Positions 42,552 to 46,555 of a stretch of DNA of 64,000 nucleotides are shown here, piece after piece (position 1 is the stretch's first letter; each line of letters begins with the position of its first letter). The stretch is from Bosea sp. NBC_00550 (GTDB taxonomy: Bacteria > Pseudomonadota > Alphaproteobacteria > Rhizobiales > Beijerinckiaceae), in the NCBI RefSeq assembly GCF_026020075.1, contig NZ_CP102772.1, forward strand, positions 4,182,501-4,246,500, written 5' to 3'. A model generated the notes under the pieces. The model saw nothing but the letters and a program-made list of their open reading frames with translations. It was not told the origin of the DNA and searched no databases. The position numbers were made by a program, and so were the translations under genes.

Positions 42552-42576
42552 GGAACTTTTTGGAATCTAGGCTGTT
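42552..42576 (+). promoter_or_regulatory. Near-consensus EcfG promoter before nepR-ecfG, GGAAC-N16-TGTT
   Basis: An exact -35 (42552-42556) with a one-base -10 deviation (TGTT for CGTT, 42573-42576) at 16-bp spacing, in the 212-bp phyR/nepR gap. Autoregulation of nepR-ecfG by EcfG is usual in this pathway. No clear promoter for phyR was found in the gap. Confidence 0.5.
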
Positions 42577-45140: not shown

Positions 45141-46022
45141 TTATGGCTGCGCGGCCTGCGCCGGTTCGATCGCAACGCCGACGCTGAGCCCCAGGAAGGA
45201 GCCGGCCGGCCCGACGAAGCTGCCTGCGACGGCCGAGGCATCCTCCGGCACGCGCGCGACAGCGACACGCAGGAGCTGCCGGTCGGCGACGAGATCGTTG
45301 GTCGGGTCGAACTCGACCCAGCCATCGCCGGGGATGAAGACGTCGGCCCAGGCATGGGTCAGCCCGACGGCACTGATCAGCGACGACGCCTCCAGGCTCC
45401 GGTCATGGATGTAGCCGGTGACGAAGCGTGCGGCGAAACCCATGCGCCGGGCGAGCTCGATGAACAGCCAGGCATAGTCGCGGCACGAGCCGCTGGCGCT
45501 TTCCAGCGTATCGACGGGATGCTGGGTCCCCTCGTCGAAGCGCACGGCATAGGAAAGCGCATCGTGGATCGCATGGGCGAGGTCGCGCAGAAGATGGCCC
45601 GAGCCCTGGCCGATCCGGGCCCTGAAATCTGCGAGCCAGTGATCGAGATGCTTGTCGGGGTCGGCGCTGGCGAGCATCAGGAAAGGCTGGAGAACCGCTC
45701 GCTCGTTTTCGCTGTAGACCACGCCGGTGAGCGCGGCCCCGGGCTTGATTTCGGTCCGGGGCAGGGCCGAGCCGAAGCGCTGGAGCGTCAGGATGCTGAC
45801 GATTTCGAGCGTATCGGCCTCGGCTTTGAAATTCGCGATGGCGACGGGGTTGCCGTAGGCGTCATGCATCCAGGTGAGATGGGCGTGCGGCGAGATCGAG
45901 AGCGCGGTGTCGAAGACACGCAGGTCGAAGCTGTCGCGCGGCCGCAGCATCAGCCGGTGCGGACCGAAGGCCACGGGCTGGGCATAGCGGTAGGTCGTTG
46001 CGTGCCGAATGCGCAGCAGCAT
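45141..46022 (-). CDS. Transglutaminase-like cysteine protease family protein
   Basis: A 293-residue protein with the bacterial N-terminal beta domain (LLRIRHATTYRYAQPVAFGPHRLMLRPRD) and a transglutaminase core: catalytic Cys in SASGSCRDYAWLFIELARR, His in LTHAWADVFIPGDGW and Asp in VEFDPTND. Likely a cytoplasmic peptidase. It ends 3 bp from the convergent kinase. An EcfG promoter lies 82 bp upstream, but a strong terminator stands between, so expression may depend on read-through. Confidence 0.92.
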   Translation of the reverse strand: MLLRIRHATTYRYAQPVAFGPHRLMLRPRDSFDLRVFDTALSISPHAHLTWMHDAYGNPVAIANFKAEADTLEIVSILTLQRFGSALPRTEIKPGAALTGVVYSENERAVLQPFLMLASADPDKHLDHWLADFRARIGQGSGHLLRDLAHAIHDALSYAVRFDEGTQHPVDTLESASGSCRDYAWLFIELARRMGFAARFVTGYIHDRSLEASSLISAVGLTHAWADVFIPGDGWVEFDPTNDLVADRQLLRVAVARVPEDASAVAGSFVGPAGSFLGLSVGVAIEPAQAAQP

Positions 46023-46043
46023 GGGGTTTCCGCCTTCAAGAAG

Positions 46044-46098
46044 CCAAAAAATAAGCCGCCAGAGGCGGCTTTGAAGTGCGACGCGAGGATGCGTCGCG
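46044..46098 (-). ncRNA. Predicted EcfG-dependent small RNA, about 53 nt
   Basis: The EcfG -10 at 46107-46104 predicts a start near 46097. The RNA would open with a perfect 7-bp hairpin (46097-46091 with 46084-46078) exposing AUCCUC in the loop. After a short ACUUCA linker comes an 8-bp terminator hairpin (46071-46064 with 46060-46053) with a UUUUUU tail. No start codon or reading frame fits. The UCCUC loop resembles anti-Shine-Dalgarno loops of alphaproteobacterial regulatory RNAs. It could alternatively be an attenuated leader of the transglutaminase gene. Confidence 0.6.
46045..46071 (-). terminator. Strong Rho-independent terminator
   Basis: On the minus strand, AAGCCGCC-TCT-GGCGGCTT is a perfect 8-bp stem with a 3-nt loop, followed by ATTTTTT. 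It ends the predicted small RNA and any read-through from the gene at 46159, 22 bp before the transglutaminase start. Confidence 0.85.
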
Positions 46099-46103
46099 CA
46101 TGT

Positions 46104-46128
46104 AACGCGGGAAATCCCGTCAGGTTCC
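46104..46128 (-). promoter_or_regulatory. EcfG-type promoter, GGAAC-N16-CGTT
   Basis: Minus strand, -35 at 46128-46124 and -10 at 46107-46104, 16-bp spacing. The spacer contains the palindrome CGGGAAATCCCG (46108-46119). The nearest downstream element is the small RNA hairpin, not a gene. Confidence 0.72.
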
Positions 46129-46158
46129 GCCGCTACGCATTTTTAGATCCTCACGTGC

Positions 46159-46440
46159 TCAGCGCACGATATGCGTGACGAGCCCGCCCGCCATCGCCTG
46201 CTGCGAAGGCGAGGCGATCGCACGCTTCGCGGTGCTCTGCGCGCGGTCTGAGCGATCGACCGCCGCGAACCGGAGATCGGCAGCCTGATCACGCTCGCCC
46301 TTGGCCATCGCGACGGTGGTCGAACTCTGGTCGGTCGGCGCCTGCAATTGTGCTCCGAGCGTCAGGCCGGTGACGGCTGCGCCCATGAATCCGAAGAAGA
46401 GGAGGGCTCGTGCAGCCGGGGCAAGACTGGCTTTCGGCAT
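46159..46440 (-). CDS. Small membrane-anchored protein under EcfG control
   Basis: A 93-residue protein with a basic N terminus, one hydrophobic helix (about 11-30, ALLFFGFMGAAVTGLTLGAQL) and an outward polar tail. No family recognised. GGGAGACAG gives a good ribosome site, and an exact EcfG promoter (N17) lies about 50 bp upstream. It is divergent from the Crp/Fnr gene, which also has an EcfG promoter. Confidence 0.72.
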   Translation of the reverse strand: MPKASLAPAARALLFFGFMGAAVTGLTLGAQLQAPTDQSSTTVAMAKGERDQAADLRFAAVDRSDRAQSTAKRAIASPSQQAMAGGLVTHIVR

Positions 46441-46489
46441 ATCTGTCTCCCAACGCTTTCCGACGCCAAACGTCGGGTTTCAGCAGGAA

Positions 46490-46515
46490 AACGCGACGGA
46501 AGCCCTGATGGTTCC
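46490..46515 (-). promoter_or_regulatory. EcfG-type promoter, GGAAC-N17-CGTT
   Basis: Minus strand, -35 at 46515-46511 and -10 at 46493-46490, 17-bp spacing, upstream of the 93-residue membrane protein. Back to back with the rightward EcfG promoter at 46530. Confidence 0.72.
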
Positions 46516-46529
46516 CTTGGTCCCGGCAG

Positions 46530-46555
46530 GGAACGCGTGGCCGCCTGTGCGCGTT
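46530..46555 (+). promoter_or_regulatory. EcfG-type promoter, GGAAC-N17-CGTT
   Basis: Plus strand, -35 at 46530-46534 and -10 at 46552-46555, 17-bp spacing, about 50 bp before the Crp/Fnr-family regulator start. Confidence 0.72.

Follow-up and report, generated by a model that had tools for sequence, protein, structure and literature searches.

The closest described system is GsrN of Caulobacter crescentus, a small RNA that is activated by SigT and acts through a C-rich 5' loop (PMC5869019). According to the same source, homologues of GsrN or similar RNAs are predicted near the general-stress locus of Rhizobium, Sinorhizobium, Brucella, Agrobacterium, Rhodopseudomonas and Bradyrhizobium, the predictions for the last two genera being based on promoter and position only, and BLASTn matches to GsrN are, as given there, confined to Caulobacteraceae. 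In Rhizobium etli, the small RNA ReC64 lies beside phyR-tcrY behind a GGAAC-N16-CGTT promoter, its 5' end has been mapped by RACE, and it is under direct EcfG control (PMC3892343). Two further RNAs are comparable in part. Bsr6 of Brucella, likened here by its published description, is a small RNA that needs the general-stress sigma factor RpoE1 and has the consensus box of this factor in its promoter (PMC12772402). UpsM of Rhodobacter sphaeroides, as would be the case for the RNA described here, arises by termination within the 5' leader of protein genes; however, its source is the leader, 268 nt long, of the dcw cluster, and the abstract mentions no EcfG promoter (PMC5089854).

Here, we describe a unit found in Bosea sp. 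NBC_00550, within a 64,000-nt stretch of contig NZ_CP102772.1 (positions 4,182,501 to 4,246,500; hereafter the window, to which all coordinates refer). The unit has in common with GsrN and the GsrN-like RNAs an EcfG/SigT-type promoter, an exposed (in the predicted fold) C-rich loop near the 5' end and a 3' terminator (PMC5869019), and its promoter matches the published EcfG motif GGAAC-N16-CGTT (PMC3892343). Among the features by which GsrN-like RNAs were recognised (PMC5869019), proximity to the ecfG-nepR-phyR locus is found in Bosea, as in most of the GsrN-like species and in contrast to C. crescentus itself, and the exposed C-rich loop is found in a reduced form (i.e., a small loop) and is missing from one clade of 12 Bosea loci (below). 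GsrN is about 106 nt long (an allele without positions 59-106 loses the terminator) vs. about 52 nt for the predicted Bosea RNA, the loop of which is 5-7 nt; further, GsrN is processed into 5' and 3' pieces and pairs with the katG leader (PMC5869019), and the predicted Bosea RNA is located 23 nt before a protein gene. That is, the Bosea unit carries those GsrN-like features that sequence can test and differs in size, in its small loop and in its leader position. With ReC64 it shares, by description, a locus that includes phyR and a histidine kinase gene as well as the GGAAC-N16-CGTT promoter (PMC3892343); a position in a TG leader does not appear in the description of ReC64 as used here. A preliminary description of the window had considered a self-contained RNA beside phyR-ecfG to be undescribed, a view that does not hold since GsrN-like RNAs are predicted (PMC5869019) and ReC64 is reported (PMC3892343) at this place. 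Searches of open-access literature gave no earlier description of this RNA from Bosea; the kind is already known, and the Bosea RNA looks like an unusually short further case of it.

Promoter, hairpins and neighbouring genes

The unit lies on the minus strand in the 136-nt gap between the gene of a transglutaminase-like protein (TG; PF08379 and PF01841; 45141-46022, minus strand, start codon at 46022) and, upstream, the gene of a 93-aa protein with no Pfam match (46159-46440, minus strand), the transcript of which would run into the unit. The TG protein has its nearest named relatives in Bosea records. By Pfam, the neighbourhood encodes PhyR, NepR, a HisKA_2/HWE kinase, TG, a CRP-type regulator and an ECF-type sigma factor, which we take to be EcfG because its gene follows nepR; the kinase and TG genes separate the unit from ecfG, over a distance of about 2.6 kb. 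It starts with an EcfG-type promoter, GGAAC-N16-CGTT (46104-46128; -35 GGAAC at 46128-46124, a 16-nt spacer, and -10 CGTT at 46107-46104), which is followed by a hairpin, GCGACGC-AUCCUC-GCGUCGC (46078-46097), with a 7-bp stem beginning at the predicted RNA 5' end near 46097 and a loop, AUCCUC (46085-46090), that is the presumed target-binding site. The linker ACUUCA (46072-46077; consensus CACTT in alignment A1, below) then leads to an intrinsic terminator identified by a terminator scan (46046-46071), whose 8-bp stem-loop reads AAGCCGCC-UCU-GGCGGCUU on the minus strand (46071-46053) and is followed by an A (46052) and six U (46051-46046), giving the predicted 3' end and an RNA of about 52 nt. 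From the U run to the TG start codon there are 23 nt. The promoter, the 7-bp hairpin with its AUCCUC loop, the 6-nt linker and the 8-bp terminator with six U are all located where the preliminary description had placed them. The predicted fold of the 54-nt strand has an energy of -27.9 kcal/mol (z -5.8; 0/200 shuffles equally stable) and leaves the AUCCUC loop unpaired, and a consensus scan of positions 45900-46500 returned this terminator as the sole terminator-like site and no sigma-70-like promoter.

The exact promoter motif means little by itself because it is not enriched genome-wide (159 occurrences in the same genome vs. 158 for the reversed control). In the window, exact motifs number 10 vs. 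0.93 expected, and none of 100 shuffles had as many. The motif is a credible marker of EcfG at this locus because it precedes nepR in 35/44 loci and the 93-aa gene in 34/45 loci (73-82 nt upstream) vs. 0/44 for phyR and 0/44 for phyK. The copy before the 93-aa gene in the window (46490-46515, minus strand) was found by motif scan, and the 93-aa protein is a probable, uncharacterised general-stress protein; GGAAC-N16-TGTT before nepR-ecfG (42552-42576, plus strand), read by eye, served as a positive control for the motif. All ten exact motifs (GGAAC-N15-17-CGTT) fall between 35604 and 46555, and the 35.6-46.6 kb region looks like an EcfG regulon island. An EcfG-type motif (46530-46555, plus strand) also precedes the CRP-type regulator gene, and such a motif was found there in 14/41 loci. 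When the 136-nt gap was shuffled 60,000 times with dinucleotides preserved, a promoter appeared on either strand in 296 shuffles and a promoter with a downstream terminator in 2, the terminator alone being found in 151 of 3,000 shuffles.

Conservation of the unit and relatives elsewhere

Conservation provides the decisive evidence that the unit is real. We compared 61 distinct loci with a TG match at E <= 1e-60, i.e., 47 of Bosea (the genus of the window, some records being filed under other titles), 7 of the Phreatobacter group (with Phreatobacter as the title of five and "PHREA1" as that of one) and 7 distant ones. The promoter element was called in 44/47, 7/7 and 0/7 of these loci, respectively, by a loose rule (2 of 4 letters at the -10, spacers of 15-17 nt tried and ties given to 16), and the spacer was 16 nt wherever a promoter was called. 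The terminator was found by rule in 46/47, 7/7 and 0/7 loci, the pattern having been widened from an earlier version that missed L024, L057 and L067 and recognising L067 through a literal string from that locus itself. A CCUC or CCCU loop was present in 27 of the 47 Bosea loci (27 of the 35 outside the 12-locus clade), as judged by a simple fold rule that missed the hairpin of L149 (GCGC-CCUC-GCGC by eye) and flagged L026, a member of the hairpin-less clade, through a UGUCC loop. Phreatobacter-group loci show the same layout as Bosea, with a hairpin carrying a C/U-rich loop in 6/7 by rule; their unit was recognised by position and layout only and is not among the three matches of model R1 (below) in G055. 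At the level of individual columns across 23 RNAs, GGAAC carries 2.0 bits per column and CGTT 1.6, 1.2, 2.0 and 2.0 bits; the spacer is mostly near random, and the flanking sequence is not fixed either.

The hairpin was assessed further in an alignment of 23 rows (A1), which leaves out L007 and L009 (close to L005), the hairpin-less clade, later-fetched rows, and L013, L015, L047 and L051, where the hairpin is broken, different or degenerate, and in which L002 and L031 have their terminator arm shifted by one column. All 23 aligned RNAs form the four core pairs of the hairpin, with changes on both sides at three of them, and in the loop C13 and G16 are invariant and C12, T14 and C15 are conserved in at least 90% of rows. 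The covariation score was 0.381 vs. 0.253 for shuffled alignments (0/500 as high). Two of the five covariation measures were ordinary (both-sided pairs were reached by 198 and pair types by 305 of 500 shuffles; 226 and 275 of 500, respectively, for the hairpin alone) and four poorly fitting rows were omitted; hence, stem covariation is clear but modest. The preliminary description had proposed covariation and conservation in relatives as checks of the RNA. The first bears it out, in that the stem covaries around a nearly fixed loop, and the second does so in part: promoter and terminator are kept, but the CCUC/CCCU loop is found in 27/47 loci and is missing from the 12-locus clade.

No family of Rfam release 15 reached its gathering score in the window; the best weak match within 45950-46200 was asX2 (E 0.29, 17.6 of 70 bits), and up to E 10 there was nothing of note. 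Beyond Bosea, model R1, built from 23 Bosea RNAs, had a match at E <= 0.01 in 91 of 199 genomes of the order, most of these near the level of ordinary terminators. Of 19 outside loci that were read individually (L111-L129), Rfam assigns L111 and L119 to BjrC1505 and L123 to suhB/mmgR. By eye, L112-L115 and L129 resemble L111 and L119, in which a CCUCCC stretch occurs together with a similar 3' module; these seven are the best R1 matches outside Bosea. BjrC1505 (RF02356) is like the Bosea RNA in its CCUCCC stretch, CACUUCAA-like linker and GGCCGCC terminator; however, it is a family of 140 positions, and the window does not reach its gathering score. Many Bosea genomes also contain a further, weaker R1 match, 46 nt long and scoring ~31-35 bits (e.g., G084:C1:1934285 and G028:C4:153214). 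We also scanned phyR regions for a promoter followed by a terminator, using 48 regions, one per genome, from the 50 genomes with a PhyR match minus the own genome and G055 (the second PhyR place of G116 was left out, and L215 was cut by a contig end). Ten of the 48 regions had a match, seven of which we did not take as RNAs. The promoter and terminator at L178 (~6487, in an open frame), L199 (~8095) and L204 (~8119), which belong to other families of the order, come with large C-rich loops and make these three loci candidate GsrN-like RNAs by eye.

Linkage to the transglutaminase gene

A strong R1 match (E <= 1.1e-8), one per genome, was obtained in 33 of 67 Bosea genomes, many of which match by construction since 23 of the matched RNAs built the model. 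TG adjoins the strong match in all 30 fetched loci and, by coordinates, in the remaining three. Of the 67 genomes, 19 lack TG and one more, G082, has a fragmentary copy; none of the 19 has a strong R1 match, the best being no better than E 6.3e-5. In ten of the 19 TG-less genomes the gap was read: in nine the unit is absent, with phyR-nepR-ecfG-phyK and the 93-aa gene, the latter shortened in L169, still in place, and the tenth, L171, has a promoter and terminator before what appears to be a decayed TG start, with no TG detected. At L148/L033 TG is kept and the unit is gone, and at L009/L092 (G020) the unit is intact though 257 nt from TG. Thus, the unit and TG are closely linked, and separable in single cases.

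The 12-locus Bosea clade, to which Bosea lupini (L057) belongs, retains the promoter (with a -10 of CGTA or CGTC) and the terminator, and has no CCUC hairpin, which corresponds to a single change on the TG tree (support 90/37). Since a hairpin with a C/U-rich loop is also found in the Phreatobacter group, its loss from this clade is the simpler reading. In ten of the hairpin-less RNAs (L021-L023, L025, L026, L050, L053, L054, L058 and L059), the sequence around GATCAGCAA upstream of the terminator is well conserved. Nine other Bosea loci, none of them in this clade, have a distance to TG of 17-33 nt, measured from within the U run. With so short a gap, which is 23 nt in the window, transcription of TG probably passes through the terminator, i.e., the gene would be expressed by read-through.

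A small RNA, a gene leader, or both

We favor the hypothesis that the unit produces an EcfG-dependent small RNA, probably GsrN-like in its action, that is made within the TG leader, with TG itself probably expressed by read-through; we place the probability of this hypothesis at roughly 0.57. The main proposal of the preliminary description, a small RNA under a stress-sigma promoter, is likely right in outline. Under this hypothesis, the EcfG-type promoter would drive an RNA of about 52 nt whose 5' hairpin would present a C/U-rich loop (AUCCUC in the window and often UCCCUC in relatives), followed by the terminator hairpin and U tail. The exposed loop would then pair in trans with G-rich, GAGG-type stretches of target mRNAs that overlap Shine-Dalgarno sequences, and the pairing would alter translation or stability of the targets under stress, as GsrN does. 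The same promoter would also feed some TG mRNA by read-through, and two such outputs are probable because the terminator ends only 23 nt before the TG start codon. A plain trans-acting RNA is disfavored by the hairpin-less clade, the 0/19 strong matches in TG-less genomes and the lack of a target signal in the genes searched.

CCUC is the core of the 16S anti-Shine-Dalgarno sequence, and GAGG-type sites would be natural partners of the loop because it contains CCUC; the likeness of AUCCUC to the anti-Shine-Dalgarno sequence is a resemblance only. Target prediction with the loop, which had been suggested as a way forward, gave no signal in nine neighbouring genes (11-19 loci each; mean z -0.42 to 0.36). 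GCGAGGATGCG, which is complementary to the loop with its flanks, is found at 51 places in the own genome, one of them the unit itself, vs. 4 for the reversed control; codon bias may cause this excess, which names no target. A classical transcription attenuator is not supported: the best upstream pairing with the terminator arm was weaker than the terminator in 33/33 RNAs, i.e., no competing anti-terminator was found among them, and no leader peptide is conserved among 23 RNAs. With competing-fold attenuation and a leader peptide both unsupported, the near-constancy of the loop suggests that it pairs with other RNAs.

Alternatively, the unit might simply be the leader of TG, in which EcfG drives the gene, the terminator throttles it (by constitutive partial termination or as a switch operated by an unknown factor) and the short RNA is a by-product, a possibility that we take seriously and nonetheless consider doubtful. 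The terminator that stands before TG in 46/47 Bosea and 7/7 Phreatobacter-group loci is consistent with this idea, as are the missing strong unit in 19/19 TG-less Bosea genomes (and of any unit in 9/10 TG-less gaps read), the promoter and terminator still present in the hairpin-less clade, and the window itself, where there is hardly any room for a separate TG promoter. However, throttling does not call for a hairpin whose stem covaries around a nearly fixed C/U-rich loop, competing pairing was never the stronger one in the 33 RNAs, and L148/L033 has TG without the unit, while L171 has promoter and terminator with no TG detected. That is, the alternative already raised in the preliminary description, a leader terminating before TG, is tenable insofar as the unit goes with TG and hardly any space is left for a separate promoter of TG, but is not supported as a classical attenuator.

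Improbable in our view is that the terminator belongs to the 93-aa gene and that the RNA represents the 3' end of the EcfG-driven message of this gene, the inner promoter being minor; the EcfG-type motif of this gene in 34/45 loci and the single terminator-like site within 45900-46500 would fit, but the inner promoter is conserved letter for letter and at a fixed spacing, and the hairpin begins at the 5' end predicted from it. It is very unlikely that promoter, hairpin and terminator coincide by chance: hairpins do arise easily in GC-rich DNA and the promoter motif is not enriched genome-wide, but promoter plus terminator appeared in only 2/60,000 shuffles, and the arrangement is conserved over Bosea and Phreatobacter-group loci. 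Finally, a very small peptide encoded by the unit is hardly credible, because, even if a 21-codon ATG frame from 46101 does run through the unit (contrary to the earlier statement that no reading frame fits) and a frame of at least 8 codons follows the -10 in 18/23 RNAs, start codons, positions and frames differ, the other 5/23 have none, the terminator frame differs between species, and stem changes are compensatory; no frame is conserved among the 23 RNAs.

Returning to the favored small RNA made in the TG leader, a more specific and only tentative version is that of a stress element with two outputs, in which the EcfG promoter would give rise both to a minimal trans-acting RNA, whose loop mimics the anti-Shine-Dalgarno core, and to TG mRNA through leaky termination, one clade having lost the RNA part while the throttle stayed. 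Among the GsrN-like RNAs compared, only the Caulobacter one has, in the published account, a shown target and stress role (PMC5869019). A conserved version of about 52 nt that has a defined loop, and of which nature offers dozens of variants, some lacking the hairpin and some lacking TG, would allow comparative dissection of the RNA arm of the stress response, and the variants would test the origin of such RNAs from gene leaders. If the two-output version is true, the unit illustrates how gene leaders and regulatory RNAs turn into each other.
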